Below are positions 2,104-25,000 of a DNA stretch of 64,000 nt, piece by piece. The position numbers and the translations under genes are program-made. A model generated the notes under the pieces. It searched no databases. It worked only from the letters and a program-made list of their open reading frames with translations, and had not been told where the DNA came from. This DNA comes from Owenia fusiformis (Eukaryota > Annelida > Polychaeta > Sabellida > Oweniidae): the NCBI GenBank assembly GCA_903813345.2, contig CAIIXF020000012.1, positions 32,244,501 through 32,308,500 on the forward strand. The letters run 5' to 3'. Each line of letters starts with the position of its first letter. Position 1 is the first letter of the stretch.

Positions 2104-3084
2104 ATGGAAAACAACTTGACAGTCAACAAATCCGCATATTCTTCAGATGATTATGAAAACAATGTTTCTATCTATATCATTAAAATTATAATGTTTCTTT
2201 GGATTTGTGGAGGAAATGGCTTGGTGATAACTGCATATCTAAAATACAAGACACTACAATCTGCCACAAATTATTGGATACTCCATTTAGCAATCGCAGA
2301 TTTTTCTATGGGACTAGTCTTAATTTTGGAACTGTGTGGCACGGTATTTTTTGATGGTACTTGGAAAGAATATGACATTCCTCCCGCAGTGTTTTTTATT
2401 GTTTGTGCAATTCTTGAATTTTGTTACATCAGTACAGTTTGGATGTCATTATTGACACTAGTTGGTATAACAGTAGACAGATACATTGCTATATTTTGGC
2501 CATTGAGGTATCCAAACATTATGACATACAATACAGCTAGAGCTGCAGTAGGCGCGATGTGGGGCCTCGTTATCGGGTATAGCGTTGTCACAATATTAGA
2601 ATGGCATTTAAGATCTGTGTCATCTGGAGAAATTGGATTCTGTGTACCAGACTATAATGGATATTCAATTGTACCAATGTTCATCTTTACAGCTATAGTC
2701 ATGATCATTCTCTATACACGCATCTTTACTGTGGTTCATAAACAATCCAAGATGATCGATCCCCATGAAGACACAAGCACAAACCATGAAGAAACTGTTG
2801 TCAAGAAAATTTCAAGAAAGAACTTGATAATCATTAAAACTGCTGTGATCGTAATAGGAATATTTCTTATTTGTTGGATCCCAATGATAGTTCTGACTGG
2901 ACTTTATCTATGGGACCCTAGTGACTTGGTTAATGAACTTTTACCGAATATGTATGAATATGTTTGGTTAATAACTATGGGAAACTCGGGTGTTAACCCG
3001 CTTATATACAGTTATAGACTGAAACCATTTCGAAAAGCATTCTGCAAATTGCTTCATATTAAAACAAGAAATCAAGATGATTAA
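2104..3084 (+). CDS. Orphan class A (rhodopsin-family) GPCR, copy A
   Basis: An intronless 326-residue seven-helix receptor at the plasma membrane; its ligand is unknown. The N-terminus carries sequons (NLT at 4, NKS at 8, NVS at 20) and no signal peptide. Seen in order: TM1 with GNGLVI, TM2 with LAIADFSMG, the TM3 cysteine (3.25) and an ECL2 cysteine for the usual disulfide, DRYIAIFWPLRY after TM3, CWIPM in TM6, and NSGVNPLIYSY in TM7, followed by helix 8 with a possible palmitoylation cysteine (KAFCKLL). Position 3.32 is Tyr, not the Asp of amine receptors, so an aminergic role is unlikely. It is the most diverged intact array member in TM3-ECL2 and ends in KTRNQDD. The start lies just after AGGAGGGAAAAA and matches the length of the paralogues. 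Confidence 0.93.
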   Translation: MENNLTVNKSAYSSDDYENNVSIYIIKIIMFLWICGGNGLVITAYLKYKTLQSATNYWILHLAIADFSMGLVLILELCGTVFFDGTWKEYDIPPAVFFIVCAILEFCYISTVWMSLLTLVGITVDRYIAIFWPLRYPNIMTYNTARAAVGAMWGLVIGYSVVTILEWHLRSVSSGEIGFCVPDYNGYSIVPMFIFTAIVMIILYTRIFTVVHKQSKMIDPHEDTSTNHEETVVKKISRKNLIIIKTAVIVIGIFLICWIPMIVLTGLYLWDPSDLVNELLPNMYEYVWLITMGNSGVNPLIYSYRLKPFRKAFCKLLHIKTRNQDD

Positions 3085-3916
3085 ACAGAAACAACAAGTA
3101 ACTTAATTGAAAGGTTCAATGTTTTCACTCAGTCTAACAAAATGTGCTTTTAAGTCGTCATCCCGTCTATTTTTGTGAGTTGACTCCAGCTTTTCAAGCG
3201 ACTTGCACCACTAAATATTGACAAGATTATTATGAACATTGATGCTTTGGTTATTAGAAAAATATTTATGGCGAAATTTGTATCATCTGGATCAGTCATT
3301 TTGAAAACAAAGTTGAGGATACTAAAAACATGGTTGTCATGGCTACAAATTACTATTCGTTTTAAATCTAGAAAATAAACTGTTCGTTGGGATAATTATT
3401 ACTGTTTATACATTGGTTGATTAATAATATATGTGTGAGATGACTTAATGTTGCTGACATCAATAACTGTCCATTTGCTACCTGGCAACTACTGTACTAG
3501 AATAATGGTCATTTCAAATGAAAAAATGAATATAATGCCTCTCCATCAATTTGTAGGCTATTAAATTTTAGGAGTAGGAGTTAGTGATAGACAACATCAG
3601 TTATGACATTAATTACTTGAACTAAACGAACATTCCTTGAGTATGAAATAGAACTCTAAATGATGATGCCAGTTTTGAAATTAACTGATAAAAATAGAAC
3701 ATCTTTTGAAATGTAGTTTAGTACTCTTTCAATAAACCGTTTCTGCTATCAAAAAGCACATAAGATATCCGTAAAAGAGAGACAAATATCTAATCGGGTG
3801 AACTACAACATTGTACTATGTTATGTGGATAATAGGCATTTACATGTAGCATATTTGGAGAGCAAAAGTGGACACAAACCTAACGAAGTAATCTTAATAA
3901 TAAATAATAATAAAAA
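3085..3916 (+). repeat. Inter-receptor spacer, copy 1
   Basis: Non-coding DNA between receptors A and B. The same spacer recurs at 8056-8828 and in shortened form at about 11141-11839, 14270-14963 and 17271-17971, each time ending at a receptor start codon. Shared landmarks are a 3'-flank segment with ACTCAGTC(A/T)AACAAAATG, a block containing ATCATCTGGATCAGTCATTT, and a promoter-proximal block with AGAGAGACAAATATCTAA shortly before the ATG. It probably combines the 3' UTR of one receptor with the promoter of the next. Confidence 0.7.
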
Positions 3917-4897
3917 ATGGATGACAGCCAGACAATAAATAAAACATCAGATTCTGCGAGTTTCATTGTGCCTACTGTTCCAAGTTATATCACTAGAATA
4001 ATAATGTTTCTCTGGATTTGTGGGGGAAATGGCTTGGTGATAACTGCATATCTAAAATACAAAACACTACAATCTGTCACGAATTATTGGATACTCCATT
4101 TAGCAATTGCAGATTTTACAATGGGAGTGGAAATAATTGTTGAACTTGGTGGTCAAATTTTTCTAGATGGATCTTGGATTGAATATGCCATTCCACCCGC
4201 GGTCTTTTTTGTCTACTGCTCAACTATTGTGATTCTTTACAACACTTCAACTTTCGTGTCATTATTGGCGCTAATTGGTGTAACAGTAGATAGATACATA
4301 GCTATATTTTGGCCACTGAGGTATCCAGACATCATGACATACAATAGAGCAAGAGCCGCAGCCGGAACAATGTGGGGTGTCCTTATTGGTTATAGCATTG
4401 TCATAATACTAGAATTGCGACTGAGATCTGGTGCATCGGGGAACATTGAAATTTGCGTGACAGATTTAACAGCATATCTATTTGGAGTAGCTTTCTCTTT
4501 AACAGCCATTATAATGATCATTCTCTACATACGCATCTTTACTGTGGTTCACAAACAGTCAAAGATGATCGCTCCCCATGAAGAAACTAGCACCAACCAT
4601 GAAGAAACTGTTGCTAAGAAAACTCCAAGAAAGAATTTGATAATCATTAAAACTGCAATGATTGTGCTAGGAATATTTTTGCTGTGTTGGATACCAATGG
4701 TCATTTTCCTTGGATTTTACCTTTGGGATGCTAATGCTGAGTATAACATGACATTTTTGAGAATTTTTGAATACATTCGGTACATTTCTGTAGGCAATTC
4801 AGGGGTCAATCCCCTTGTATATAGTTATAGGCTGAAACCATTTCGAATGGCATTGTGCAAACTGCTCCACATCAAAACAGGAAATCAAGAGCAATAG
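3917..4897 (+). CDS. Orphan class A GPCR, copy B
   Basis: Intronless, 326 residues. The N-terminus MDDSQTINKTSD has one sequon (NKT). It has the family hallmarks: GNGLVI (TM1), LAIADFTMG (TM2), DRYIAIFWPLRY (end of TM3), CWIPM (TM6) and NSGVNPLVYSY (TM7), plus a short basic ICL3 with a KKTPRKN segment and a C-tail ending KTGNQEQ. ECL3 contains an extra sequon (NMT). It belongs to the same subgroup as the copies at 8829, 11840, 14964 and 17972 and is closest to the last of these in the ECL3-TM7 region (LRIFEYIRYIS). The start ATG follows an A-rich stretch (AATAATAAAAA) conserved before most paralogues. The ligand is unknown; Tyr at 3.32 argues against biogenic amines. Confidence 0.93.
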   Translation: MDDSQTINKTSDSASFIVPTVPSYITRIIMFLWICGGNGLVITAYLKYKTLQSVTNYWILHLAIADFTMGVEIIVELGGQIFLDGSWIEYAIPPAVFFVYCSTIVILYNTSTFVSLLALIGVTVDRYIAIFWPLRYPDIMTYNRARAAAGTMWGVLIGYSIVIILELRLRSGASGNIEICVTDLTAYLFGVAFSLTAIIMIILYIRIFTVVHKQSKMIAPHEETSTNHEETVAKKTPRKNLIIIKTAMIVLGIFLLCWIPMVIFLGFYLWDANAEYNMTFLRIFEYIRYISVGNSGVNPLVYSYRLKPFRMALCKLLHIKTGNQEQ

Positions 4898-4971
4898 ATT
4901 TGTTGAATGTCCAAATATCCATGCGATAAGAAATATAATACTTCAAATCAAATCAAATTCTTTGACAATTA

Positions 4972-5119
4972 CTGAGGACTAGTGCATCAGGAAACATTAC
5001 TGATTGTACAAAGATATATATTGCAACGGCATATTTGTATGAAGCAGCTTTTATCCTCACAGCTGTAATCATGATTATTCTCTACATTCACATCTTCACT
5101 GTGGTTCACAAACAATCAA
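4972..5119 (+). pseudogene. 5' half of a GPCR relic (ECL2-TM5)
   Basis: Nearly identical to about 20163-20308 inside receptor H: it encodes a diverged ECL2 and TM5 ending in the VVHKQS segment of ICL3, then stops abruptly. It has no start codon or upstream helices. Homologous half-copies follow receptors D, E and F (9862, 12888, 15996). Here the matching 3' half lies 2.6 kb downstream at 7722-8055, so this pair shows the original state: a receptor copy interrupted at ICL3 by inserted DNA. Confidence 0.85.
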
Positions 5120-7721
5120 TAAAGGACCCACAGTCCTGTGCTCACACAGTGTAGAACCTTTCTAAAGAGGAATGTATATCCTGATTTTCAAACAAAATTA
5201 TTGATTTTGATTTGTAGTCTCGAACTATGAGAAACTTATAAAAAACAGTTGTGTGACCTCGTTTGATGACCTTTGACCTTGAAAATTTTACTTATTCAGA
5301 GCTCTGTAGGTCTTTTGTGATTAAGGTGACCAAAATTTACATCCAAATAATCAATTTGAAAAATCAATTTTTTTTACCTTTCCAAGGTCACTGAAGGTCA
5401 AATCTCAAAACTAAGGTCGGATTTGAACTCCTGGCAACTTGTAGACGATTTTCCCAAAACAATTTAGTCAAATTGAAGCAAGTTGAAAAATAACTTATTT
5501 TTACTGGTTTTTGATGTCAAATATCTCAAAAACAGTAAAAATTTGATGCAGACATATATTGAGAAACATGCAGGGAATGCTTAAAGATCTAATAGCAAAG
5601 GTTTTGCAAAAATAAATCAATGTAGTATAAAACAAATGTATGTATAATGAAGAAATAAATATATAATGAAAAAAATATATATGTGTTTGTAATATTGGTA
5701 TAAACTTAAGATTAAAAAGTGTCACTATCTCTTTCATTTTTCAACAAATATAGGCTCACATGACATGTGACGCGGGGCAGGCAATTTTGATCTATCGTAG
5801 ACCATATCAGTATCATATTGCTGATATTTCAACCTCGTCTTGCGAGGCCATTTTGATTTGAAACATCTTGAATTTGGTGTCAAAATGAAGCTGGTCACGC
5901 CCACTTTCAGAGTTATCAATGAATCATTTACTACGACTACTATATTCATTTAGGACGCGTGTAAAGTTAACCAATCAGAAAGACAATTGTTCCAAATATG
6001 GCAGTTCATTAACATTCAGTGTTTACTACTGCTTTTCGCGTCATGACAACACGAGTAGTAACCAATCAAGATGCCGTATTTTATCACGTGAGTTCAGAGT
6101 GACACGCACGCGACATGTTGTCTGAGGTGATGGCGATGTTGAACAATTTCTTCTCGGAATTTGTCCAGAGAAATCAGCGATTCTAAATTAAGGTAGGATC
6201 TGCCATTTTTTCCTGTACAAGTTATAACTTATCTCTATCGAATCCTAAAGTTTTGGAAGAAGATATGAAGCGTAGGTTTAAAAACGAAGCGATTAATTTG
6301 ACGATCTGATTTTGCAATTTGCAATGGCCAATTTACTGCAAGTCCAGTGCATGTATTTGACAAGAGATAGCGCCAAGTCTTGTAGTCTTTGCAATCTTTG
6401 CAGAAAACCTGTTTTCATAATCTGTTTTCCGCATCTAGATTCAAACTGAATATGATAATAGGATCGCTGGAATCTTCATTCAATGGCAACGGGTCTTCAT
6501 TCCAGAACTCACATTTTTAGTTGATTCTCCGTCATAGTTCTTGTCTAAAGTCCCCATATCTGCTCTCTTACTGCCATACTTGCACACATTTCCCCTCCTT
6601 AAATTGTCTATATTCAAATTACACCCTCTCGCCGATTTATATAGCCATTTCCCAGAACCCGGGAATCAGAATCGCTGATGTTTGCCATATTAAACATATT
6701 ATATGTACTGTAATATCTGTACATTGCCTGCTACGCGTAATGGTCACGTGACTAGCGCGATACAGGAAAAATGGGGAATTTCGAAACAACAATTTTTGGG
6801 CACTTTTATTGCAAATTTCAGGTATTTATAAAGTGTTTGTGGTATAAAATATAATCCACAGACATAAATGAACATCCAAACTACATATTTCATTAAGTTT
6901 TGGAGCCTTTTCTGCTCTTAAATTAACATCTTTAAATCTAGTTTTGATGTAATTCATTGCAAGAAATGATCAAGTATAAGGCAAACTTTAAGAAACTTGT
7001 CAATCACAAAACCTGCCATTGACTTTATACATGAGAAAGTTCCCTGAAAATGACTCCCTAAAGTCCTGTTTTTTTGTCAAATATTATAGAATAAAAACCA
7101 AAAATTGTAATTCCAAGAGAGGACATATGATGCACATACAGCAACTACTACCACTTATTTGAAAGTTCTACTTCAACAAAGTGTCTTATATTTACAGAAA
7201 ACCTGACTTTTTGACTTCAAAATCGGCAATCTCTCAGAAACCAGGCGAACTTGAGAAATGGCGATGATAGGTCAAACAGGCATTATGGACATGCATAAAA
7301 TGAATGTGAATATGACTCAATACGAATAGCAGTTTTAATTTGTGCAGCCAATGATGATTGACTTAATACAAGAGAAAGTTCCCTGAAAATGACAAAGTCC
7401 TACTTTTTGTCAAATTTTATATAGTAAACACCAAAAACTGTAACTTCAAGAGCTCTGAAATCTTCAGAGAACATAAGTTGCATATACAGCAACTACTACA
7501 AGTTATTTGAAAGTTGTACTTCAATAAAGTGTCTAGTATTTACAGAAAATTTGACTTTTTGTCAAATCAGCAATTTCTTGGACACTGGGCAAACTTGGGA
7601 AATGGTGATGATAGGTCAAATAGGCATTATGAATATGCATAAAATGAATGTGGATATGACTCAATCCGAATAACAGTTTTAACTTGTGCAGCCAATGTTT
7701 ACGGACGGACCAACGGACAAA
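5120..7721 (+). mobile_element. Non-coding element interrupting a GPCR relic, copy 1
   Basis: This block sits exactly where an intact receptor has continuous ICL3 coding sequence. It starts with ACCCACAGTCCTGTG and ends with TTTACGGACGGACCAACGG. Related copies without the inner insertion occur at 10010-11140, 13035-14268 and 16144-17270. Its right part is a tandem dimer: a ~370 bp module (GAGAAAGTTCCCTGAAAATGAC ... GATGATAGGTCAAA.AGGCATTATG) occurs twice, at about 6950-7340 and 7345-7720. No protein-coding region was recognised and no clear terminal repeats were found, so its class is unknown. Confidence 0.6.
5581..6935. mobile_element. 1.35 kb insertion with short inverted ends
   Basis: Present in this copy of the element but absent from the otherwise matching copy near 13497, where the flanks join as TGCTTAAATCTAG. 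The ends are inverted: TTAAAGATCTAATA on the left, and on the right the reverse complement reads TTAAAGATGTTAAT. No transposase or other convincing protein is encoded; short ORFs around 5734-6125 and 6521-6751 look random. This is best read as a non-autonomous DNA transposon or an insertion of unknown type, possibly at a TTAA-like target. Confidence 0.5.
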
Positions 7722-8055
7722 AATGATCGCTCCCCATGAAGACACTAGCACCAACCAGGAAGAAACTGTTGCTAAGAAAACATCAAGAAAGAACTTCATA
7801 ATTATCAAAACTGCTGTGATCTTAATAGGAATATTTCTTATTTGTTGGCTACCAATAGTAATTTTCACTGGGTTTTATTTTTGGAATATTAATGCCACAT
7901 AAAGTGTAACTTTTATGACACTCTCTGAATACGTTTGGTTTATCTCTATGGGTAGCTCAGGTGTTAACCCACTTATATACAGTTATAGACTGAAACCATT
8001 CCGACAAGCATTCTGCAAATTGCTTCATATTAAAACAAGAAATCAAGACGATTAA
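7722..8055 (+). pseudogene. 3' half of a GPCR relic (ICL3-TM7-tail)
   Basis: It resumes at the ICL3 methionine (MIAPHEDTSTNQEE) and runs through TM6 (CWLP), TM7 (SSGVNPLIYSY) and the tail KTRNQDD. It is closest to receptor H, but its tail and 3' flank match receptor A. A TAA replaces the Tyr codon of the NATY segment in ECL3 (about 7900-7902, where H has TAC). With the separated 5' half at 4972 it forms one dead receptor gene. Confidence 0.87.
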
Positions 8056-8828
8056 AGAGAAACAACGAGAAACCTAATTGAAATGTTCAGTGTTTTCACT
8101 CAGTCAAACAAAATGTACTTTTTAGTCAACTTCCTGTCTATTTTTGAGTTGACTTGCACCACTTATAGTAACAAGATTATCTTAAACATTGATGCTCTGG
8201 TTATTAAGAAAAATGTTTATGATTATTTAATAATGGCGAAATTTGTATCATCTGGATCAGTCATTTTGAAAACAAACTAAAAACATGGTTTTCATGGCTA
8301 CAAATTACTATTCGTTTTAAAATTATTACTGTTCATACATTGGTTGAATAATAATATATATGTGAGATGACTTAATGCTGTTGACATCAATAACTGTCCA
8401 TTTGCAACCTGGCAACTACTGTACTAGAATAATGGTCATTTCAAATGAAAAATAAATATATGCCACTCCATCAATTTGTATGCTATTAAATTTTAGAAGT
8501 AGGAGTGTGATAGACAACATCAGTTAAATCATTAATTACTTGAGCTAAACGAACATTCCTTGAGTATGAAATAGAACTCTAAATGAAGATGACACAGTTT
8601 TGAAAGTAACTGATAAAAATAGAACATCTTTTGAAATGTAGTTTAGTACTCCTACAATACACCTTTTCTACTATCAAAAAGCAAATAAGATATCTGTAAA
8701 AGAGAGACAAATATCTAAACGGGTGAACTACAATGTTCTGTGGATAATAGGAATTAACAGGGAGCATATTTGGAAAGCAAAAGCGGACACAAACCTTAAG
8801 AATTAATCTTAATAATAAATGATAAAAA
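8056..8828 (+). repeat. Inter-receptor spacer, copy 2
   Basis: Homologous to 3085-3916 along most of its length, with small indels. It follows the relic exactly as copy 1 follows receptor A, which supports a block duplication of receptor plus spacer. No gene was recognised; the promoter-proximal block with GAGAGACAAATATCTAAAC is retained about 115 bases before the next ATG. Confidence 0.7.
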
Positions 8829-9809
8829 ATGGATGACAACCAGACAATAAATAAAACATCAGATTCTGCGAGTTTCATTGTGCCTAATGTTCCAAGTTAT
8901 ATCACTAGAATAATAATGTTTTTATGGATTTGTGGAGGAAATGGCTTGGTGATAACTGCATATCTAAAATACAAGACACTACAATCGGTCACAAATTATT
9001 GGATACTTCATTTAGCAATTGCAGATTTTACAATGGGAGTAGAAATAATTGTTGAACTTGGTGGTCAAATTTTTCTTGATGGATCTTGGACTGAATATGC
9101 CATTCCACCAGCGGTCTTTTTTGTGTACTGTGCAACTATTGTGATTCTTTACAACACTTCAACTTTCATGTCATTATTGACACTAGTTGGTGTTACAGTA
9201 GATAGATACATTGCTATATTTTGGCCACTGAGGTATCCAGACATTATGACATACAATAGAGCAAGAGCCGCAGCCGTAACAATGTGGGTTGTCCTTATTG
9301 GGTATAGCATTGTCTCAATACTAGAACTGCGACTGAAATATGGAGCATCGGGGAACATTGAAATTTGCGTGACAGACTTAATACCATACCTATTTGGAGT
9401 AGCTTTCTCTTTAACAGCCATTATAATGATCATTCTCTACATACGCATTTTTACTGTGGTCCACAAACAATCCAAGATGGTCGCTCCCCATGAAGAAACT
9501 AGCACCAATCATGAAGAAACTGTTGCTAAGAAGACTCCAAGAAAGAATTTGATAATCATTAAAACTGCAATGATTGTACTAGGCATATTTCTAATGTGTT
9601 GGATACCAATGGTCATTTTCCTTGGATTTTACCTTTGGGATGCTAATGCAATGTATAACATGACATTTTTGAGAACTTTGGAATATATTCGGTACATATC
9701 TGTAGGCAATTCAGGGGTCAATCCCCTTGTATATAGTTATAGGCTGAAACCATTTCGAATAGCATTCTGCAAACTGCTCCACATCAAAACAGGAAATCAA
9801 GAGCAATAG
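8829..9809 (+). CDS. Orphan class A GPCR, copy D
   Basis: Intronless, 326 residues, with all family hallmarks: DRY motif, CWIP in TM6, NSGVNPLVYSY in TM7, and the TM3 and ECL2 cysteines. From the middle of TM1 to the stop its protein is identical to copy E at 11840; they differ only near the N-terminus (D3, A14 and I28 here versus V3, V14 and V28 in E). The TM3-TM4 region (SLLTLVGVT; AVTMWVVLIGYS) and ICL3 MVAPHEE mark the D/E subtype. Such identity implies very recent duplication or gene conversion. The start choice follows the conserved AAAAA-ATGGATG context. Confidence 0.93.
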   Translation: MDDNQTINKTSDSASFIVPNVPSYITRIIMFLWICGGNGLVITAYLKYKTLQSVTNYWILHLAIADFTMGVEIIVELGGQIFLDGSWTEYAIPPAVFFVYCATIVILYNTSTFMSLLTLVGVTVDRYIAIFWPLRYPDIMTYNRARAAAVTMWVVLIGYSIVSILELRLKYGASGNIEICVTDLIPYLFGVAFSLTAIIMIILYIRIFTVVHKQSKMVAPHEETSTNHEETVAKKTPRKNLIIIKTAMIVLGIFLMCWIPMVIFLGFYLWDANAMYNMTFLRTLEYIRYISVGNSGVNPLVYSYRLKPFRIAFCKLLHIKTGNQEQ

Positions 9810-9861
9810 ATTTGTTGAATGTCCAAATATTCATGCTATAAGAAATATTCTTTGACAATTA

Positions 9862-10009
9862 CTGAGGACTGCCGCATCAGGAAACATTACTGATTGTACA
9901 AAGATATATATTGCAACGGCATATTTGTATGAAGCAGCTTTTATCCTCACAGCTGTAATCATGATCATTCTCTACATTCACATCTTCACTGTGGTTCACA
10001 AACAATCAA
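9862..10009 (+). pseudogene. 5' half of GPCR relic following copy D
   Basis: Same ECL2-TM5 half-receptor fragment as at 4972, ending at the ICL3 junction (CACAAACAATCAAT) and followed by the non-coding element. Its 3' half is missing: in this unit the element joins directly to spacer sequence at about 11140. Confidence 0.8.
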
Positions 10010-11839: not shown

Positions 11840-12820
11840 ATGGATGTCAACCAGACAATAAATAAAACATCAGATTCTGTGAGTTTCATTGTGCCTAATG
11901 TTCCAAGTTATATCACTAGAGTAATAATGTTTCTATGGATTTGTGGAGGAAATGGCTTGGTGATAACTGCATATCTAAAATACAAGACACTACAATCGGT
12001 CACAAATTATTGGATACTTCATTTAGCAATTGCAGATTTTACAATGGGAGTAGAAATAATTGTTGAACTTGGTGGTCAAATTTTTCTTGATGGATCTTGG
12101 ACTGAATATGCCATTCCACCAGCGGTCTTTTTTGTGTACTGTGCAACTATTGTGATTCTTTACAACACTTCAACTTTCATGTCATTATTGACACTAGTTG
12201 GTGTTACAGTAGATAGATACATTGCTATATTTTGGCCACTGAGGTATCCAGACATTATGACATACAATAGAGCAAGAGCCGCAGCCGTAACAATGTGGGT
12301 TGTCCTTATTGGGTATAGCATTGTCTCAATACTAGAACTGCGACTGAAATATGGAGCATCGGGGAACATTGAAATTTGCGTGACAGACTTAATACCATAC
12401 CTATTTGGAGTAGCTTTCTCTTTAACAGCCATTATAATGATCATTCTCTACATACGCATTTTTACTGTGGTCCACAAACAATCCAAGATGGTCGCTCCCC
12501 ATGAAGAAACTAGCACCAATCATGAAGAAACTGTTGCTAAGAAAACTCCAAGAAAGAATTTGATAATCATTAAAACTGCAATGATTGTACTAGGCATATT
12601 TCTAATGTGTTGGATACCAATGGTCATTTTCCTTGGATTTTACCTTTGGGATGCTAATGCAATGTATAACATGACATTTTTGAGAACTTTGGAATATATT
12701 CGGTACATATCTGTAGGCAATTCAGGGGTCAATCCCCTTGTATATAGTTATAGGCTGAAACCATTTCGAATAGCATTCTGCAAACTGCTCCACATCAAAA
12801 CAGGAAATCAAGAGCAATAG
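11840..12820 (+). CDS. Orphan class A GPCR, copy E (mosaic)
   Basis: Intronless, 326 residues, with a complete seven-helix structure and the usual motifs. The first ~28 residues (MDVNQTINKTSDSVSF, then ITRVIMF) match copies F and G, while everything from TM1 onward matches copy D at the protein level. This mosaic is best explained by gene conversion or unequal crossing-over within the array, with a switch inside the TM1 coding region (about 11925-11995). One N-terminal sequon (NKT) and one in ECL3 (NMT). It is probably functional; the ligand is unknown. Confidence 0.93.
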   Translation: MDVNQTINKTSDSVSFIVPNVPSYITRVIMFLWICGGNGLVITAYLKYKTLQSVTNYWILHLAIADFTMGVEIIVELGGQIFLDGSWTEYAIPPAVFFVYCATIVILYNTSTFMSLLTLVGVTVDRYIAIFWPLRYPDIMTYNRARAAAVTMWVVLIGYSIVSILELRLKYGASGNIEICVTDLIPYLFGVAFSLTAIIMIILYIRIFTVVHKQSKMVAPHEETSTNHEETVAKKTPRKNLIIIKTAMIVLGIFLMCWIPMVIFLGFYLWDANAMYNMTFLRTLEYIRYISVGNSGVNPLVYSYRLKPFRIAFCKLLHIKTGNQEQ

Positions 12821-12887
12821 ATTTGTTGAATGTCCAAATATTCATGCTATAAGAAATATTTGAAATCAAATCAAATTCTTTGAATTA

Positions 12888-13034
12888 CTGAGGACTGCCG
12901 CATCAGGAAACATTACTGATTGTACAAAGATATATATTGCAACGGCATATTTGTATGAAGCAGCTTTTATCCTCACAGCTGTAATCATGATCATTCTCTA
13001 CATTCACATCTTCACTGTGGTTCACAAACAATCA
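12888..13034 (+). pseudogene. 5' half of GPCR relic following copy E
   Basis: ECL2-TM5 fragment as at 4972 and 9862, again stopping at the ICL3 junction. The bases just before it differ from the D and F units (here TGAAATCAAATCAAATTC is kept), showing that this repeat unit is of a slightly different type. Confidence 0.8.
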
Positions 13035-14268
13035 ATAGAGGACCCACGGTCCTGTACTGACACAGTGTAGAACCTTCAGAGGAATGTATATATCCTGATT
13101 TTCAAACAAAATTATTGATTTTGATTTGTAGTCTCGAACTTTGAGAAACTTAGATAGCACAGTTTGTGACCTAGTTTGAGGACCTTTGACCTTGAACATT
13201 TTACTTATTCAGAGCTCAGTAGGTCTTTTGTGATTTAAGGTGACCAAAATTTACATGCAAATAATCAATTTGAAAAATCAACTTTTTGACCTTTCCAAGG
13301 TCACTGATGGTCAAATCTCAAAACTAAGGTCAGATTTGAACTCCTGGTAACTTGTAAATGATTTTACCCAAATAATTTGGTCAATTTGAAGCAAGTTGAA
13401 AAATAGCTTATTTTTACTGGTTTTTGACGTCAAATATCTCAAAAACAGTAAAAATTTGATGCAGACATATATTGAGAAATATGTAGGGAATGCTTAAATC
13501 TAGTAATAATGATGTAATTCATTGAAAGGAATGAACAAGTATAGGGACAACTTTGAGAAACTTTTCAATCACAAAACCTGCCATTGACGATATACATGAG
13601 AAAGTTCCCTGAAAATGACTCCCTAAAGTCCTGCTTTTTGGCAAATCTTATAAAGTAACACCAAAAACTGTAATATCAAGAGCTCTGAAATCTTCAGAGA
13701 ACATAAATTGCACATACAGCAACTACTACCACTTATTTGAAAGTTCTACTTCAACAAAGTGTCTTATATTTACAGAAAACTTGACTTTTTCAAAATCGGC
13801 AATTTCTCAGAAACCAGGCAAACTTGAGAAATGGCGATGATAGGTCAAACAGGCATTATGGATATGTATAAAATGAATGTGAATATGACTCAATACGAAT
13901 AGCAGTTTTAATTTGTGCAGCCAATGATGATTGACTTTAAACAGAGAAAGTTCCCTGAAAATGACAAAGTCCTACTTTTTGTCAAATTTTATAGAGTAAA
14001 CACCAAAAACTGTAATTTCAAGAGCTCTGAAATCTTCAGAGAACATAAGTTGCATATACAGCAACTACTACAAGTTATTTGAAAGTTCTACTTCAATAAA
14101 GTGTCTAGTATTTACAGAAAATTTGACTTTTAGTCAAAATCAGCAATTTCTCGGACACAATGGCGAACTTGGGAAATGGTGATGATAGGTCAAATAGGCA
14201 TTATGAATATGCATAAAATGAATGTGGATATGACTCAATTCCGAATAACAGTTTTAATTTGTACAAGC
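13035..14268 (+). repeat. Non-coding element, copy 3 (longest without insertion)
   Basis: It keeps the segment around 13380-13510 (TTTTTACTGG... to TGCTTAAATCTAG) that is missing from copies 2 and 4, so it shows the empty site of the 1.35 kb insertion in copy 1. Both dimer modules are present. No coding potential was seen. Confidence 0.6.
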
Positions 14269-14963
14269 TAACTCAGTCAAACAAAATGTACTTTTTAGTC
14301 AACTTCATGTCTATTTCTTGAGTTGACTTGCACCACTAATATTGACAAGATTATCATGGCGAAATTTGTATCATCTGGATCAGTCATTTTGAAAACAAAG
14401 TTGTGGTTACTAAAAACATGGTTGTCATGGCTACAAATTACTATTCGTTTTAAAATTATTACTGTTCATACATTGGTTGATTAATAATATATGTGTGAGA
14501 TGACTTGATGTTGCTGACATCAATAACCATCCATTTGCTACCTGGCAACTACTGTACTGGAATAATGCTCATTTCAAATGAAAAATGAATATAATGCCTC
14601 TCCATCAATTTGTATGCTATTAAATTTTAGGAGTTGGAGTTAGTGATAGACAACGTCAGCCTTACATTAATTACTTGAACTAAACGAACATTCCTTTAGT
14701 ATGAAATAGAAGTCTAAACGAAGATGACACCAGTTTGAAAGTAACTGTTAAAAATAGAACATCTTTTGAAATGTAGTTAAGTACTCTTTCAATAAACTTT
14801 TTCTGATATCAAAAAGCATATAACACATCAGATATCCGTAAAATAGAGACAAATATCTAAATGGGTGAACTACAATGCTTTGTGGATAATAGGAATTTAC
14901 AGGGAACGTATTTGGAGAGCAAAAGTGGACGCAAACCTTAAGAAGTAATCTTAATAATAAATA
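14269..14963 (+). repeat. Inter-receptor spacer, copy 4
   Basis: Nearly identical to 11141-11839 and 17271-17971. Immediately before the receptor start the A-run is lost: AATAATAAATAATGGATG instead of AATAATAAAAAATGGATG. No gene was recognised. Confidence 0.65.
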
Positions 14964-15943
14964 ATGGATGTCAACCAGACAATAAATAAAACATCAGATT
15001 CTGTGAGTTTCATTGTGCCTAATGTTCCAAGTTATATCACTAGAGTAATAATGTTTCTATGGATTTGTGGAGGAAATGGCTTGGTGATAACTGCATATCT
15101 AAAATACAAGACACTACAAACAGTCACAAATTATTGGATACTGCATTTAGCAATTGCAGATTTTACAATGGGATTGGAAATAATTTTTGAACTTGGTGGT
15201 CAACTTTTTATTGATGGATCTTGGACTGAATATGCCCTTCCACCCGTGGCCTTTTTTGTGTACTGTGCAACTATTGTGATTCTTTACAACACTTCAACTT
15301 TCATGTCATTATTGGCACTAATTAGTGTAACAGTTGATAGATACATTGCTATATTTTGGCCACTGAGGTATCCAGACATTATGACATACAATAGAGCAAG
15401 AGTCGCAGCTGGAACAATGTGGGGTGTCCTTTTTGGGTATAGCATTGTCTCAATACTAGAATTGCGACTGAGATATGGTGCATGGGGGAACATTGAAATG
15501 TGTGTTACAGACTTAACAGCATATATATTTGGAGTAGCTTTCTTTTTAACAGGCATTATAATGATCATTCTCTACATACGCATTTTTACTGTGGTTCATA
15601 ACAGTCAAAGATGATCGCTCCCCATGAAGAAACTGGCACCAACCATGAAGAAACTGTTGCTAAGAAAACTCCAAGAAAGAATTTGATAATCATTAAAACT
15701 GCAATGATTGTACTAGGCATATTTCTAATGTGTTGGATACCAATGGTCATTTTCCTTGGATTTTACCTTTGGGATGCTAATGCAACGTATAACATGACAT
15801 TTTTGAGAACTTTGGAATATATTCGGTACATATCTGTAGGCAATTCAGGGGTCAATCCCCTTGTATATAGTTATAGGCTGAAACCATTTCGAATAGCATT
15901 CTGCAAACTGCTCCACATCAAAACAGGAAATCAAGAGCAATAG
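14964..15943 (+). pseudogene. Class A GPCR copy F, frameshifted in ICL3
   Basis: Homologous along its whole length to copies E and G, but 980 rather than 981 bases. One A is missing at about 15600-15603 (GTTCATAACAGTC against GTTCACAAACAGTC in G). The frame therefore ends at TGA after TM5 (15612-15614), and the rest (TM6, TM7, tail) is open in another frame from 15611. A truncated product would have five helices and no CWxP or NPxxY. The N-terminal two thirds resemble G, while ECL3-TM7 (LRTLEYIRYIS, FRIAFC) resembles D/E, so this copy is also mosaic. A base-calling error in an A-run cannot be excluded from this sequence. Confidence 0.85.
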
Positions 15944-15995
15944 ATTTGTTGAATGTCCAAATATTCATGCTATAAGAAATATTCTTTGACAATTA

Positions 15996-16143
15996 CTGAG
16001 GACTGCCGCATCAGGAAACATTACTGATTGTACAAAGATATATATTGCAACGGCATATTTGTATGAAGCAGCTTTTATTCTCACAGCTGTAATCATGATC
16101 ATTCTCTACATTCACATCTTCACTGTGGTTCACAAACAATCAA
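15996..16143 (+). pseudogene. 5' half of GPCR relic following copy F
   Basis: ECL2-TM5 fragment, almost identical to the one at 9862-10009 and with the same upstream join, showing that the D and F units share a more recent common origin than either shares with the E unit. Confidence 0.8.
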
Positions 16144-17270
16144 TAGACCCACGGTCCTGTACTCACACAGTGTAGAACCTTCAGAGGAATGTATATCCTG
16201 ATTTTCAAACAAAATTATTGATTTTGATTTGTAGTCTCGAACTTTGAGAAACTTAGATAGCACAGTTTGTGACCTAGTTTGAGGACCTTTGACCTTGAAC
16301 ATTTTACTTATTCAGAGCTCAGTAGGTCTTTTGTGATTAAGGTGACCAAAATTTACATGCAAATAATCAATTTGAAAAATCAACTTTTTTGACTTTTCCA
16401 AGGTCACTGATGGTCAAATCTCAAAACTAAGGTCAGATTTGAACTCCTGGTAACTTGTAAACAATTTTCCCCCAAAAATTTGGTCAAATTGAAGCAAGTT
16501 GAAAAATAATAATGATGTTATTCATTGAAAGGAATGAACAAGTATAGGGACAACTTTGAGAAACTTGTCAATCACAAAACCTGCCATTGACGATATACAT
16601 GAGAAAGTTCCCTGAAAATGACACCCTAAAGTCCTGCTTTTTGGCAAATTTTATAGAGTAACACCAAAAACTGTAATATCAAGAGCTCTGAAATCTTCAG
16701 AGAACATAAATTGCACATACAGCAACTACTACCACTTATTTGAAAGTTCTACTTCAACAAAGTGTCTTATATTTACAGAAAACTTGACTTTTTCAAAATC
16801 GGCAATTTCTCAGAAACCAGGCAAACTTGAGAAATGGCGATGATAGGTCAAACAGGCATTATGGATATGTATAAAATGAATGTGAATATGACTCAATACG
16901 AATAGCAGTTTTAATTTGTGCAGCCAATGATGATTGACTTTAAACAGAGAAAGTTCCCTGAAAATGACTAAGTCCTACTTTTTGTCAAATTTTATAGAGT
17001 CAACACCAAAAACTGTAATTTCAAGAGCTCTGAAATCTTCAGAGAACATAAGTTGCATATACAGCAACTACTACAAGTTATTTGAAAGTTCTACTTCTAT
17101 AAAGTGTCTAGTATTTACAGAAAATTTGACTTTTAGTCAAAATCAGCAATTTCTCGGACACATGGCGAACTTGGGAAATGGTGATGAAAGGTCAAATAGG
17201 CATTATGAATATGCATAAAATGAATGTGGATATGACTCAATCCGAATAACAGTTTTAATTTGTACAAGCT
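16144..17270 (+). repeat. Non-coding element, copy 4
   Basis: Shares with copy 2 (10010-11140) the same ~120 bp deletion and the same truncated right end joined to the spacer at about 17270. The open frame over 16934-17218 is a chance product of one dimer module; the equivalent frames in the sister copies are not conserved. Confidence 0.6.
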
Positions 17271-17971
17271 AACTCAGTCAAACAAAATGTACTTTTTAGT
17301 CAACTTCATGTCTATTTCTTGAGTTGACTTGCACCACTAATATTGACAAGATTATCATGGCGAAATTTGTATCATCTGGATCAGTCATTTTGAAAACAAA
17401 GTTGTGGTTACTAAAAACATGGTTGTCATGGCTACAAATTACTATTCGTTTTAAAATTATTACTGTTCATACATTGGTTGATTAATAATATATGTGTGAG
17501 ATGACTTGATGTTGCTGACATCAATAACCATCCATTTGCTACCTGGCAACTACTGTACTGGAATAATGCTCATTTCAAATGAAAAATGAATATAATGCCT
17601 CTCCATCAATTTGTATGCTATTAAATTTTAGGAGTTGGAGTTAGTGATAGACAACGTCAGCCTTACATTAATTACTTGAACTAAACGAACATTCCTTTAG
17701 TATGAAATAGAAGTCTAAACGAAGATGACACCAGTTTGAAAGTAACTGTTAAAAATAGAACATCTTTTGAAATGTAGTTAAGTACTCTTTCAATAAACTT
17801 TTTCTGCTATCAAAAAGCATATAACACATCAGATATCCGTAAAATAGAGACAAATATCTAAATGGGTGAACTACAATGCTTTGTGGATAATAGGAATTTA
17901 CAGGGAACGTATTTGGAGAGCAAAAGTGGACGCAAACCTTAAGAAGTAATCTTAATAATAAATAATAAAAA
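17271..17971 (+). repeat. Inter-receptor spacer, copy 5
   Basis: Nearly identical to 14269-14963 including the block TTTACAGGGAACGTATTTGG, but it retains the A-run before the start codon. No gene was recognised. Confidence 0.65.
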
Positions 17972-18952
17972 ATGGATGTCAACCAGACAATAAATAAAAC
18001 ATCAGATTCTGTGAGTTTCATTGTGCCTAATGTTCCAAGTTATATCACTAGAGTAATAATGTTTCTATGGATTTGTGGAGGAAATGGCTTGGTGATAACT
18101 GCATATCTAAAATACAAGACACTACAAACAGTCACAAATTATTGGATACTGCATTTAGCAATTGCAGATTTTACAATGGGAGTGGAAATAATTTTTGAAC
18201 TTGGTGGTCAAATTTTTATTGATGGATCTTGGACTGAATATGCCATTCCACCCGCGGCCTTTTTTGTGTACTGCGCAACTATTGTGATTCTTTACAACAC
18301 TTCAACTTTCATGTCATTATTGGCACTAATTAGTGTAACAGTTGATAGATACATTGCTATATTTTGGCCACTGAGGTATCCAGACATTATGACATACAAT
18401 AGAGCAAGAGTCGCAGCTGGAACAATGTGGGGTGTCCTTTTTGGGTATAGCATTGTCTCAATACTAGAATTGCGACTGAGATATGGTGCATGGGGAAACA
18501 TTGAAATGTGTGTTACAGACTTAACAGCATATATATTTGGAGTAGCTTTCTTTTTAACAGGCATTATAATGATCATTCTCTACATACGCATTTTTACTGT
18601 GGTTCACAAACAGTCAAAGATGATCGCTCCCCATGAAGAAACTAGCACCAACCATGAAGAAACTGTTGCTAAGAAAACTCCAAGAAAGAATTTGATAATC
18701 ATTAAAACTGCAATGATTGTACTAGGCATTTTTCTAATGTGTTGGATACCAATGGTCATTTTCCTTGGAGTTTACCTTTGGGATGCTAATATAACTTATA
18801 ACCTGACATTTTTGAGAATTTTTGAATACATTCGGTACATTTCTGTAGGCAATTCAGGGGTCAATCCCCTTGTATATAGTTATAGGCTGAAACCATTTCG
18901 AATGGCATTCTGCAAACTGCTCCACATCAAAACAGGAAATCAAGAGCAATAG
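17972..18952 (+). CDS. Orphan class A GPCR, copy G
   Basis: Intronless, 326 residues and intact. Its N-terminal and central parts match copy F (SLLALISVTVDRY; ICVTDL replaced by MCVTDLTAYIFG), and its ECL3-TM7 region (NITYNLTFLRIFEYIRYIS) matches copy B. Sequons: NKT at the N-terminus and NIT/NLT in ECL3. DRYIAIFWPLRY, CWIPM and NSGVNPLVYSY are all present. It is the intact counterpart of frameshifted copy F. The half-receptor relic and non-coding element do not follow it, so it marks the right end of the 3 kb repeat units. Confidence 0.93.
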   Translation: MDVNQTINKTSDSVSFIVPNVPSYITRVIMFLWICGGNGLVITAYLKYKTLQTVTNYWILHLAIADFTMGVEIIFELGGQIFIDGSWTEYAIPPAAFFVYCATIVILYNTSTFMSLLALISVTVDRYIAIFWPLRYPDIMTYNRARVAAGTMWGVLFGYSIVSILELRLRYGAWGNIEMCVTDLTAYIFGVAFFLTGIIMIILYIRIFTVVHKQSKMIAPHEETSTNHEETVAKKTPRKNLIIIKTAMIVLGIFLMCWIPMVIFLGVYLWDANITYNLTFLRIFEYIRYISVGNSGVNPLVYSYRLKPFRMAFCKLLHIKTGNQEQ

Positions 18953-19641
18953 ATTTGTTGAATGTCCAAATATCCATGCGATAAGAAATATTTGAAATCA
19001 AATCAAATTCTTTGACAATTCTAATAAACAATTAATAATAAAAATATTCCGCTTTACACAACAGCACTATTAAGTCAATGGTTACCAGGCAACTAAAATG
19101 TGGATAATTAGGATGAATTTGTAAAATATTCTTGTTTCAAAGTGACTGTAAGTGATACTTTAAGTAGTATTTATCTGCCCTTCCCAGACACTAACCTTTA
19201 CTTTAAATAATTAATAACACTTTGGTTTGGCACTGAGATGAGCTCTACCATACTAAATGCTCATAGATATGATCAAAGGGAAGTGTTAAAAAATGAAATA
19301 GAGTGGCAAATATAGAATAATGTAAAAAGACATGACATTAACGTAATACATAATGGCAATGTAAAATTATGTAAACAAATGTGACATAAACTTTATAAAT
19401 AATGACAAATGTAGATTTATGTAAACAAACATGACATAAGCATTATAAATAAAAGGTGAAAATTGAAAAGCCATCACTTATCTAAACGGATTGCACCAGG
19501 AGAAGGATAGACTCTAGATTCACATATTGGACCAAGGATAAAGGAATCAAGCTAAAGATAAGACTATTTCACTTAGAAATCGCAAAGGCCGAAATTTAAT
19601 ATAGACAAACACTAACCTGAAGAGAAATAAATCTTGTAAAA
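18953..19641. other. Spacer between receptors G and H
   Basis: Unlike the other spacers, this has no clear homology to the repeat units beyond the first ~70 bases. It contains a short degenerate direct repeat (ATGTAAACAAA(C/T)(A/G)TGACATAA) around 19360-19440 and the TATA-like site described separately. No gene was recognised. Confidence 0.45.
19444..19451 (+). promoter_or_regulatory. Possible TATA box of receptor H
   Basis: TATAAATA followed by AAAGG lies about 190 bases before the ATG of receptor H. The match to the animal TATA consensus is good, but the region is AT-rich, so chance occurrence is plausible. Confidence 0.3.
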
Positions 19642-20643
19642 ATGGATTACACAGGTTACATGGATTACAATCTAACAGTCAACGAAACATCATATTCTTT
19701 GTATTACCCTGAATTCAATGTTTTTAAGTATATCATTAGATTGATAATATGTCTGTGGATTTGTGGAGGAAATGGCTTGGTGATAACTGCATATCTAAAA
19801 TACAAGACACTACAATCTGACATGAATTATTGGATACTCCATTTAGCAATTGCAGACTTAACTATGGGAGTTGAAATAATTTTCGAACTTTGCAAATTTT
19901 TTCTTGATGGAACTTGGACAGAAAATGCTGTCCCACCTCAAGCCTTTTTTGTCTACTGTTCATCTTTTGTGATTCTTTACAACATTTCTACTGTGATGTC
20001 ATTATTGGCGCTAATTGGTGTAACAGTAGATAGATACATTGCAATATTTTGGCCACTGAGGTATCAAGACATTATGACATACAACAGAGCTAGAGCTGTA
20101 GTTGGCACAATGTGGGTCCTCGTTATCGGATATAGCTGTGGTGCAATTTTAGAGTTCCAGCTGAGGACTGGCGCATCAGGAAACATTACTGATTGTACAA
20201 AGATATATATTGCAACGGCATATTTGTATGAAGCAGCTTTTATCCTTACAGCTGTAATCATGATCATTCTCTACATTCACATCTTCACTGTGGTTCACAA
20301 ACAATCAAAAATGATCGCTCCCCATGAAGACACTAGCATCAACCAGGAAGAAACTGTTGCTAAGAAAACATCAAGAAAGAACTTGATAATCATTAAAACG
20401 GCTGTGATTGTAATAGGAATATTTCTTATTTGTTGGCTACCAACAGTAGTTGTCACTGGACTGTATCTTTGGAATGTTAATGCCACATACAGTGTAACTT
20501 TTATAACACTTTGCGAATATATTTGGTATATTTCCATTGGTAGCTCAGGTGTTAACCCACTTATATATAGTTATAGACTGAAGCCATTTCGAAGAGCATT
20601 CTGTAAACTGCTTCATATCAAAACAGGAAATCTTGAGGATTAG
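19642..20643 (+). CDS. Orphan class A GPCR, copy H
   Basis: Intronless, 333 residues. The N-terminus is longer (MDYTGYMDYNLTVNETSYS) with two sequons. Motifs seen: GNGLVI, LAIADLTMG, DRYIAIFWPLRY, CWLPT in TM6 and SSGVNPLIYSY in TM7. Compared with B-G, the TM2-TM3 loop lacks one residue (ELCKFFLDG), and ECL2 differs (ITDCTKIYIATAYLYEA). All the half-receptor relics in the array (4972, 7722, 9862, 12888, 15996) are of this subtype, so H is the only surviving full member of that branch. Tyr at 3.32 again argues against amine ligands. Confidence 0.93.
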   Translation: MDYTGYMDYNLTVNETSYSLYYPEFNVFKYIIRLIICLWICGGNGLVITAYLKYKTLQSDMNYWILHLAIADLTMGVEIIFELCKFFLDGTWTENAVPPQAFFVYCSSFVILYNISTVMSLLALIGVTVDRYIAIFWPLRYQDIMTYNRARAVVGTMWVLVIGYSCGAILEFQLRTGASGNITDCTKIYIATAYLYEAAFILTAVIMIILYIHIFTVVHKQSKMIAPHEDTSINQEETVAKKTSRKNLIIIKTAVIVIGIFLICWLPTVVVTGLYLWNVNATYSVTFITLCEYIWYISIGSSGVNPLIYSYRLKPFRRAFCKLLHIKTGNLED

Positions 20644-20693
20644 ACTGTCAACCAAAATAGAATGAAGATAACCAAAGTAGAAAAGGTACTTTT

Positions 20694-21742
20694 GATTGCC
20701 ATCCAGCGTAATATGTAATATGTAAATATAATATGATTCAAAAGGTTATGTAATAAAGTCGATATTTTAAAACAATTAGAGACTACACCTTTAAAATATT
20801 AGGAACATGATTGCCACCCAGTGTAATATGTAATATGTAAATATAATATGATTCAAAAGGTTATGTAATAAAGTCGATATTTTAAAACAATTAGAGACTA
20901 CACCTTTAAAATATTAGGAACATGATTGCCACCCAGTGTAATATGTAATATGTAAATATAATATGATTCAAAAGGTTATGTAATAAAGTCGATATTTTAA
21001 AACAATTAGAGACTACACCTTTAAAATATTAGGAACATGATTGCCACCCAGTGTAATATGTAATATGTAATATGTAAATATAATATGATTCAAAAGGTAT
21101 ATGTAATAAAGTCGATATTTTAAAACAATTAGAGACTACACCTTTAAAATATTAGGAACATGATTGCCACCCAGTGTAATATGTAATATGTAAATATAAT
21201 ATGATTCAAAAGGTATATGTAATAAAGTCGATATTTTAAAACAATTAGAGACTACACCTTTAAAATATTAGGAACATGATTGCCACCCAGTGTAATATGT
21301 AATATGTAAATATAATATGATTCAAAAGGTATATGTAATAAAGTCGATATTTTAAAACAATTAGAGACTACACCTTTAAAATATTAGGAACATGATTGCC
21401 ACCCAGTGTAATATGTAATATGTAAATATAATATGATTCAAAAGGTATATGTAATAAAGTCGATATTTTAAAACAATTAGAGACTACACCTTTAAAATAT
21501 TAGGAACATGATTGCCACCCAGTGTAATATGTAATATGTAAATATAATATGATTCAAAAGGTATATGTAATAAAGTCGATATTTTAAAACAATTAGAGAC
21601 TACACCTTTAAAATTTTAGGAACATGATTGCCACCCAGTGTAATATGTAATATGTAAATATAATATGATTCAAAAGGTATATGTAATAAAGTCGATATTT
21701 TGAAACAATTAGAGACTACACCTTTAAAACATTAGGAACATG
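20694..21742. repeat. Satellite, nine copies of a 115-123 bp unit
   Basis: Unit starts (GATTGCC) lie at 20694, 20809, 20924, 21039, 21162, 21278, 21394, 21510 and 21626. Copies are nearly identical. The fourth is longer by a duplicated GTAATAT, and copies 4-9 carry GGTATATG where copies 1-3 have GGTTATG. Every copy includes AATAAA (first at 20752-20757), so the array began by amplifying the probable 3' end of receptor H. Confidence 0.95.
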
Positions 21743-22059
21743 TATTTGGAAGACATATATCCTATTGAAACTAAATTCCCTAAATATCCAGTCAAAGTTA
21801 TTATTTCCAGAGGTACAGTCTCCTTCGTTCATGTATCTTTATCAATAACTTTATAAACAGGTCATAATAATAAACTTTTGTCTTCACTTAACCAGCTTTG
21901 GATACAAAATTCCCCAATTTTCCAAGACAGCATCTCATTTCAAAATTTCCTGATATTTCGGGCCCATTTGGCCTAATTTCAAAATTGATGTTGGAAAAAA
22001 TAAGACATTTCCCCGGTACTTCCAGTTCTCTAGGAACCCTTACAAATAGTAACATTTAC
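21743..22059. other. No recognisable feature
   Basis: This is where the terminal PRPF19 exon would be expected on the minus strand if the last intron were short. No WD40-like coding was found in any minus-strand frame; read-through of the donor at 22054-22059 meets a stop after about ten codons. Confidence 0.5.
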
Positions 22060-25000
22060 CTCGTATCTGTCTGCAAGGGTAATCGTCTTGAAGTTCTTCA
22101 ACTTCCTCAAATCCCAGAGTTTCACAACAGAATCATCAGCCGATGTTGCCAGGTAATAACCTATAAGAACACATTCAATTGTATAACACTTTCATTATGA
22201 TGACAAGAGACTTTGTGACGTTGTCATGTAATTACATATAAGAACACATTTATGTGTAAACACTTTCATTATGATGACAAGAGACTTTGTGACGTTGTCA
22301 TGTAATAACATATAAGAACACATTTATATGTAAACACTTTCATTATGATGAGACTTTATGACGTTGTCATGTAATAACATATAAGAACACATTTATGTGT
22401 AAACACTTTCATTATGATGACAGAGACTTTGTGACATTGCCAGGTAATAACATATGAGAACACATTCATGTGTAAACACTTTCATTATGGTGAGACTTTA
22501 TGGCGTTGTCAGGTAATAACATATAAGAACACATTCATGTGTAAACACTTTCATTATGATGACAGAGACTTTGACTTTGATTTATACAATGTATTCATTG
22601 ACTTTTCTAAACCATTTAGCATTCAAAATTAAAAGCAATTAGGCAAGATGACATTGGAAATCCTTTTTACCATTTTCTGAGAAAGCTATGCTTGTGATTG
22701 GTCCAGAATGTCCGGGGAAGTTAGCCACATCTGTTCGCTCTTTCAGATCCCAAATCTTGATGATGGAATCTTCAGTTCCCGTTCCAAAGATCAAACCATC
22801 AGGATGAAACTGCGCACAAGTGAGAGCTGAAAAAATGATGAAATCAATGAGACATTTTATAGAGTAACAGGCAATAGGGTCATGAATTGTGCATGCTCTC
22901 TGAAAAATTGGACTGTCTGATTTTCTAAAAATTCTATAGTACAGAGTGTGCACTATTTCTTTATACCAAATAGACTGTATCTGGACTCAAACTATTAGTA
23001 TTTTTCTTCAACTGTGCCCTCTATTTGAGGAAAAGGGCTCATAGGTTTATTCACAAAACTTATCTACAGAAAAAAACTAAAACCTATTCACACTTTGTAT
23101 TTTCAACATCCCCTCCTTGAGTGATTCGTTTTCAAAAAAATAATATTTTTCCCATCCCTTTTGTCGAGATTTTATACAAGTTGGACACCATGATAACTAA
23201 CTGATGTTATGTTTCTAATAGTTATTCTGAATTTATTTTCTAATTTTTGATAAGATATGATTAAGATGTAACAAAATTTGTTCCTACCATTTTGTGAGGA
23301 TGAATCAGATACTTTAGTGAGAACGCGTCCAGTGCGAATGTCAGAGAAAGCCCAATGCTGAAAGTAAAATAGTCAATTATGACAAAATTATTTCACAATT
23401 AGAAATTTTTTATTTTGACAGATTTTATCACATATACTGTACACATATATTCACATTGTAGTGGTGAGTAAAGGATGTGTCTGGATATATGCCCTTTTGG
23501 TCCCTCAGTCAAATGTATGTGAAACATGGTTTTTATTACTGTCCTAGTTATATTTGATAAGTATATTTACTTTTTCATGAGTTTTGATGCATAATTAACC
23601 CCCTGCTGAGAGTTAGAATAAATTTCTTAACAAATAAAAAAGGGTCATTATCATAGAAAAAAACACCAATGGCAACATGTATGACATACAAAGAAGAAAT
23701 AACTTAAGATCCATCAAGAATTAAAAAGAAAATCATATTTTTGAAATATATCTAAGGATTAAAATATTTTTCAAATTTTTGAATTTCCCGCCAGTTTAAT
23801 TTGAAGGGGGAAAAACAAGATGGCTGCCATTTGATGTAAGAAATATCAGAAAAAAAGTTGCTTCACTTTTAGTTTTCACATTGAGCACAGTTTTCCGGTT
23901 TAGGTTTTTTGACTGATTCTGACTCTTCATCACCAGGTTCATGTATAGAGATTATAAAATTGAAACCAAAATGTTGTGCTCAGCATGAATTTGACTGAAA
24001 TATGTGTAACTTCACCAACACAATTGAAGTGTCAAAACGGGATGCTCAGTACCTTTGAGTGACTATAATCCCTTGATTACCCAGATAAACACCAATTCAC
24101 TTATCCAGAAATACCATTCAATGTCTATACAAAGAAAGTAAGCAATGTTTTGGAGGATATGTTTCACACTTTTTGTATAAATAATTCATTTAATATTTGG
24201 TAGGGGTGAGACGACAACCCGATGAGTCGAGGACTCGCGGGTTTGGGGCTTCGAGTCGAGTCGAATCGAGTCGAAGTTGATGAATCGAATCATTTTCGAG
24301 TTGAGAAAAATATTCGAAAAAATAAAAAAATTCAGAAAAATACTGTCAATATGCATGTTTTTACTCGATATTGCGTTGAATATATAAGTTTCAATGACTT
24401 GGATATGCTTGTATTAAATTATTATATTGTATGTACACATAAATGAAAGAATATATGTAATAAAATCAGAATAAACTTACGACGAATTGTGTTTGTTTAT
24501 ATTTCCGGCTTTCCACCATTGACGCATTAAAAATACGAACGGTCAAAAGTGATGTTGTTCGCACTTCGCGCGACTCGAAACGGATTCGAAACTCGAATCG
24601 TCATTTTCTGACTCGAATCGGATTCGACTCGAATCGGATTTTTTCGACTCGTCTCACCCCTAATATTTGGCATTGATTTTTTGTCAATTCTGACAAAGTG
24701 ATATGCACTGTCTTTCATCCCAATATTCTTCATCAATTGTGATACAAATTGATATTTTTGTAATCTCATAAGAAGGATAAGATATTGAAGTTTAGTAATA
24801 TGTGGGATTGAGTTGGTTTTTCAGACATTACAATTTTCAATATTTTCTAAGTCGATACCCAGACTCATTCCCAGACTCATCCTTTTTTTTGATTGTGGTC
24901 CCTCAAAAATTTGAGTTGTGATTCAATGCAAATGACAGCAAGTGAAGTTCACAAATTACCACAATTACACAAAAAATATTTTGTAAGTCCATTACCAAGA

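Follow-up and report, generated by a model that had tools for sequence, protein, structure and literature searches.

Where does the PRPF19 gene of Owenia fusiformis end, and does a tandem array of receptor genes lie inside its last intron? The question is raised by the window, i.e., the whole 64,000-nucleotide stretch of contig CAIIXF020000012.1 that was analyzed here, in which PRPF19 runs leftward along the minus strand and breaks off at 22060, next to 22 kb of DNA that hold receptor genes on the plus strand. PRPF19 is an essential and usually single-copy gene. A sequence-only reading of the window had left two options, namely, that the last exon lies beyond the left edge with the array nested in the intron, or that the gene or the assembly is broken at this point. 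We find this either/or claim to be pitched at the right level and, of its two sides, favor nesting.

PRPF19 Is Unbroken from a Candidate Exon 1 to Exon 11

The gene model for PRPF19, the PRP19 splicing factor, starts on the minus strand with a first coding exon at 31856 and continues through ten more exons to 22060; the 11 exons add up to 435 codons in an intact frame, with no stop ahead of the last donor. When human PRPF19 was searched against the window by tblastn, exon matches were obtained on the minus strand from 29.9 down to 22.0 kb. Residues 1–435 of the window protein aligned to residues 1–437 of the 504-residue human chain of solved PRPF19 (E 1.5e-219), with 73.3% identity over human residues 8–437. 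Exons 2–5 (29927–29778, 29442–29366, 28977–28783, and 28540–28463), exons 6–8 (26332–26216, 25837–25652, and 25223–25068), and exons 9–10 (23357–23288 and 22826–22671), all on the minus strand, are bounded by splice sites, remain in frame, and are backed by the human alignment. Exon 11, the final one in the window (22160–22060, minus strand), has the acceptor gtgttcttatag and ends in the donor junction GAG/GTAAAT (gtaaatgt). AG acceptors and GT donors were present at 10/10 of exons 2–11, and a GT donor was also found at the candidate exon 1. The exons in the window do end cleanly at a GT donor at 22060 after residue 435, as the sequence-only reading had stated.

The candidate for exon 1 (31838–31856, minus strand) was obtained by pattern matching. 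It codes for MALCCA plus one base and is followed by the donor GTGAGT; when it is joined to exon 2, the split codon is completed in frame to give MALCCAISNEVP, which aligns from human residue 1. Narrower first patterns gave no match for exon 1. Over the 34 kb that precede exon 2, a broad pattern matched the minus strand at 31856 alone (one match on the minus strand and one on the other, compared to a mean of 0.4 in 30 shuffles), while a strict pattern, devised after the candidate had been seen, gave one match that is unique in the window, none on the other strand, and a shuffle mean of 0.0. A missing 5′ end, which would favor a gene fragment, was rejected on the strength of this candidate; with exon 1 placed at 31856–31838, PRPF19 therefore lacks its 3′ end only. 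The N-terminus aligns without a gap to human PRPF19 from residue 1, and the Prp19/Pso4-like coiled-coil domain (PF08606) was detected in the product at 112.5 bits against a cut-off of 22.7; the U-box model was absent among the best 25 of 39 Pfam families.

Repeats of several kinds were observed within the gene. Close to exon 2 on its upstream side, intron 1 holds a decayed partial copy of that exon (29961–30028; 68 columns, 75% identical). In intron 10, a minisatellite (22145–22573) reaches into the start of exon 11. Its units are similar to that exon's acceptor and beginning, 15 nt of the exon being repeated exactly at 22437–22451, and it may have originated by duplication of this splice-site border. 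Further minisatellites occupy introns 7 (25451–25645, 21-nt units) and 5 (26387–28324, 133-nt units).

The C-Terminal 67 Residues Have No Counterpart in the Window

The final residue of exon 11, the 435th of the window protein, corresponds to human E437, and the remaining 67 residues of human PRPF19 (438–504) are without counterpart in the window. Beyond PRPF19's own exons, tblastn matches had E values of 1.8 or worse; phmmer --max, run on 4570 six-frame segments of at least 8 residues, gave, for the human and the Caenorhabditis elegans query, best scores outside the PRPF19 exons of 4.8 and 5.5 bits, respectively; and a two-sequence profile search of the window returned no PRPF19 terminal exon. 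The power of the search with the human query was assessed by simulation, using copies of the human stretch that carried substitutions only (no indels) and were divided into one to three exons, at a threshold of 5.5 bits. At 90, 75, 60, 50, and 43% identity, 200/200 simulated copies were recovered in each of the 15 settings, and even at 35% identity recovery was 200, 200, and 196 of 200 for one, two, and three exons, respectively. On the combined evidence of tblastn, phmmer --max, the profile, and the power simulation, an overlooked small terminal exon was rejected, both elsewhere in the window and at 18.9–22.0 kb, where the sequence-only reading had allowed that one might have been missed by eye. 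The nesting proposal thus survives that check, and the accompanying claim that the left 22 kb contain no further PRPF19 coding sequence was upheld by tblastn, phmmer --max, and the simulation. We also ran a codon-usage scan trained on the PRPF19 exons and the receptors. Among its best 70 segments, those in the left 22 kb were receptors, receptor frames read in antisense, and short plus-strand segments of two kinds, namely, receptor relics and 501–686, for which no Pfam family was found.

The Prp19 propeller consists of seven blades. The corresponding WD40 propeller profile (PF24814) was covered at positions 1–220 of 281 with 311.4 bits, below the cut-off of 320; the other 61 of 281 positions are absent from the product and were not found in the window. 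The earlier estimate of about 70 missing residues is close to the 67 counted here, whereas the loss, at 61 of 281 profile positions, amounts to about 1.5 blades and not to the last blade alone. Since the product falls below the Pfam propeller cut-off, a working gene should need a further exon.

A Plus-Strand Receptor Array Occupies the Left 22 kb

Arranged in tandem on the plus strand of the left 22 kb are seven class-A receptor genes, of which six are intact and one is frameshifted, together with five relics. The intact genes are R1 (2104–3084), which is a single exon, R2 (3917–4897), R3 (8829–9809), R4 (11840–12820), R6 (17972–18952), and R7 (19642–20643), the last being nearest to PRPF19. 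In R5 (14964–15943), the frame is broken near 15600, leaving two overlapping open frames. The 7tm_1 family (PF00001) was found above cut-off in 6/6 intact receptors scanned (R5 left out), with E values of 4e-42 to 1e-36, and the plus-strand receptor array described earlier is thereby confirmed. When R2 was compared with solved structures, the best 60 of 580 matches were generic (adrenergic, trace-amine, adenosine, and serotonin receptors), and the same query gave no match in the plasmids database.

The repeat units of the array are ~3 kb long and 88–98% alike, and one tandem pair (13504–15983 and 16507–18992) is 98.4% identical. For the 15 pairs formed by the six intact receptors (NG86, R5 left out), dS ranged from 0.009 (R3/R4) to 0.72 and dN/dS from 0.20 to 0.44. 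The array has probably grown by repeated duplication of its unit and is probably still variable.

All five relics lie on the plus strand and are R7-like. The largest (7711–8052) is the C-terminal third of a receptor with 88.7% nucleotide identity and an in-frame stop. The other four, at 4972–5122 (151 nt, 96.7% identical to R7), 9862–10009 (148 nt, 98.6%), 12888–13035 (148 nt, 98.6%), and 15996–16143 (148 nt, 98.0%), represent one and the same R7 segment (codons 174–223). They are found 53–75 nt past the stop of R2–R5, i.e., after 4/5 of the R2-type genes, and none was found after R6. Synonymous divergence was 0.10–0.17 in 5/6 pairs of intact R2-type genes; the relics are nearer to R7 than this divergence suggests, so gene conversion is possible.

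Other Features of the Window

Rfam and tRNA scans of the window returned 0 and 0 matches. No Pfam family was found at E 0.1 in ten further open frames, nor was one found in the open frame at 31998–32456. A plus-strand open frame of 199 aa (42834–43433) appeared by eye to encode possibly a secreted coiled-coil protein and had a sub-threshold Pfam match only (DUF4200, 21.9 bits vs. 29.7). Large AT-rich repeat blocks at 53418–55160 and 57641–58050 show a 9-nt ACGATATAC-like core as well as longer units of 172, 346, and 221 nt, and the long open frames within them look like repeat translations, not genes.

The Array Is Probably Nested in the Last PRPF19 Intron

We consider it probable that the receptor array is nested in the last intron of PRPF19. 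What is seen in the window agrees with the earlier proposal to this effect: the 5′ part of the gene is unbroken and keeps its donors; exon 11 contains no stop, and unspliced read-through from it would add VNVTICKGS (nine residues) before a stop is reached; neither AATAAA nor ATTAAA occurs in the 22060–20000 interval of the minus strand; and the receptors lie on the plus strand and PRPF19 on the minus strand, the orientation of an opposite-strand guest. The part that does not stand on the window itself is the far side of the intron, as the terminal exon is absent; PRPF19 exons are seen to the right of the array only, and the left side runs off the window.

According to this proposal, PRPF19 would be an ordinary, probably functional gene whose last intron, in phase 0 and following the codon that matches human E437, would be filled by class-A receptor genes, each a single exon, that multiply in tandem on the other strand. 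The part of this putative intron 11 lying in the window would cover 1–22059 (minus strand) and be open at the left edge, no terminal exon having been found in it, and the terminal exon or exons, comprising 67 codons and a stop, would lie left of base 1. PRPF19 pre-mRNA would traverse the seven receptor genes in antisense, a distance of more than 22 kb, and would then be spliced across them. The receptors would be driven by promoters of their own, and the host would tolerate growth of the array because intron length is free to change.

Several observations speak against nesting. The intron required is at least 10 times longer than any other in PRPF19, the nine introns between exons 2 and 11 measuring 242–2130 nt and intron 1 about 1.9 kb; lengthening of the array by duplication, to which the 98.4% identical units and the low R3/R4 dS attest, would explain this excess. 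The downstream exon is absent from the window, and a near-perfect 1-kb satellite at the junction is a possible spot for an assembly misjoin. A strand-skew test for transcription through the array gave no support and was mildly negative, with an AT skew of 0.078 in noncoding array DNA vs. 0.010 in PRPF19 introns (0.023 without satellites). Finally, the left 22 kb had no sequence in common with the rest of the window at 1e-3 (low-complexity masking), where a trace of the array's arrival was sought.

Of the rival explanations, we rank an assembly misjoin first, a truncated gene copy second, and a changed ending third. Under a misjoin, 22060 would in reality be followed by the proper intron 11 and terminal exon, and an unrelated array would have been joined at or near the 116-bp satellite that lies between R7 and exon 11 (20693–21742). 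Its nine copies, with 97% matches, and the highly repetitive nature of the array itself speak for a misjoin. However, the window contains no runs of N, the G+C content of noncoding array DNA (0.322) agrees with that of PRPF19 introns outside satellites (0.316), and about 317 nt of non-satellite sequence separate the satellite from exon 11. Moreover, satellites are present in other PRPF19 introns, through which the gene continues unbroken, and the 116-bp satellite is therefore no special mark. We regard a misjoin as unlikely.

More unlikely still is that a PRPF19 that was only partly duplicated, or that a rearrangement has broken, lies beside the array, with an intact copy elsewhere. The 3′ part is indeed absent, and the adjoining locus is prone to duplication, yet the 5′ end, with exon 1, seems to be complete, the 435 codons carry no disabling change, and the splice sites of exons 2–11 are kept at 10/10. 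Since a break inside an intron would give the same picture, the intact 5′ part is weak evidence against such a copy. That PRPF19 has instead acquired a changed ending, be it the short read-through end (VNVTICKGS) offered by the in-frame stop nine codons past the donor or an unrelated terminal exon newly gained within the array, is very improbable. It would open the propeller, the matching stretch is conserved between human and C. elegans, and AATAAA and ATTAAA are both absent from the minus strand over 22060–20000.

The nested arrangement, if real, invites a more far-reaching reading, which we put forward tentatively and think doubtful. A receptor family would be expanding now in the last intron of PRPF19, a spliceosome gene that every cell requires, every PRPF19 transcript would run antisense through all of the receptors, this transcription could silence the array except in receptor-choosing cells, and each new copy would lengthen the intron. 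If nesting holds, a core splicing factor and a young, probably still-growing array would occupy the two strands of the same DNA. This would be a natural experiment on the amount of intron growth and antisense traffic that such a gene can bear, and on whether receptor arrays are silenced with the help of constitutive antisense transcription. If PRPF19 is broken instead, the locus is a warning on gene models that lie beside tandem arrays.

Comparison with Known Systems

A literature search gave, among the matches listed, none that combined PRPF19 with a nested gene. Pattern scans of viral_contigs matched 4 and 6 stretches, none of which was confirmed, and found no animal relative; a scan of genome_contigs also found no animal relative, and the 5/26 stretches that were confirmed proved to be distant bacterial or archaeal WD40 loci, 24–38% identical.

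Opposite-strand nested genes are common in animals. In C. elegans, 567 opposite-strand nested protein-coding pairs are reported, e.g., ceh-10 in an intron of polq-1 (PMC12274878). The arrangement proposed here resembles these pairs in that the guest lies on the strand opposite to the host; it differs from ceh-10/polq-1 in that the guest would be a seven-gene tandem array and the downstream exon of the host would lie outside the window. Arrangement in tandem is described as a characteristic trait of olfactory receptor genes, and many rhodopsin-like candidates of the crown-of-thorns starfish are located in such arrays (PMC5442662). Like the array in the window, these are clusters of related class-A receptors thought to expand by duplication; the starfish cluster that is illustrated, in contrast, contains genes in both orientations, and the excerpted account makes no mention of nesting (PMC5442662).

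In ants, a preprint proposes that antisense transcription across odorant-receptor arrays gates receptor choice (PMC12393541). Antisense transcription would likewise cross the receptor array in the window. In ants, however, the antisense RNA is described as noncoding and as arising from receptor promoters (PMC12393541), whereas the RNA crossing the array in the window would be housekeeping pre-mRNA. If nesting is confirmed, the arrangement as such would belong to a known class, and what would set it apart is its guest, a still-growing multigene receptor array inside a spliceosome gene.
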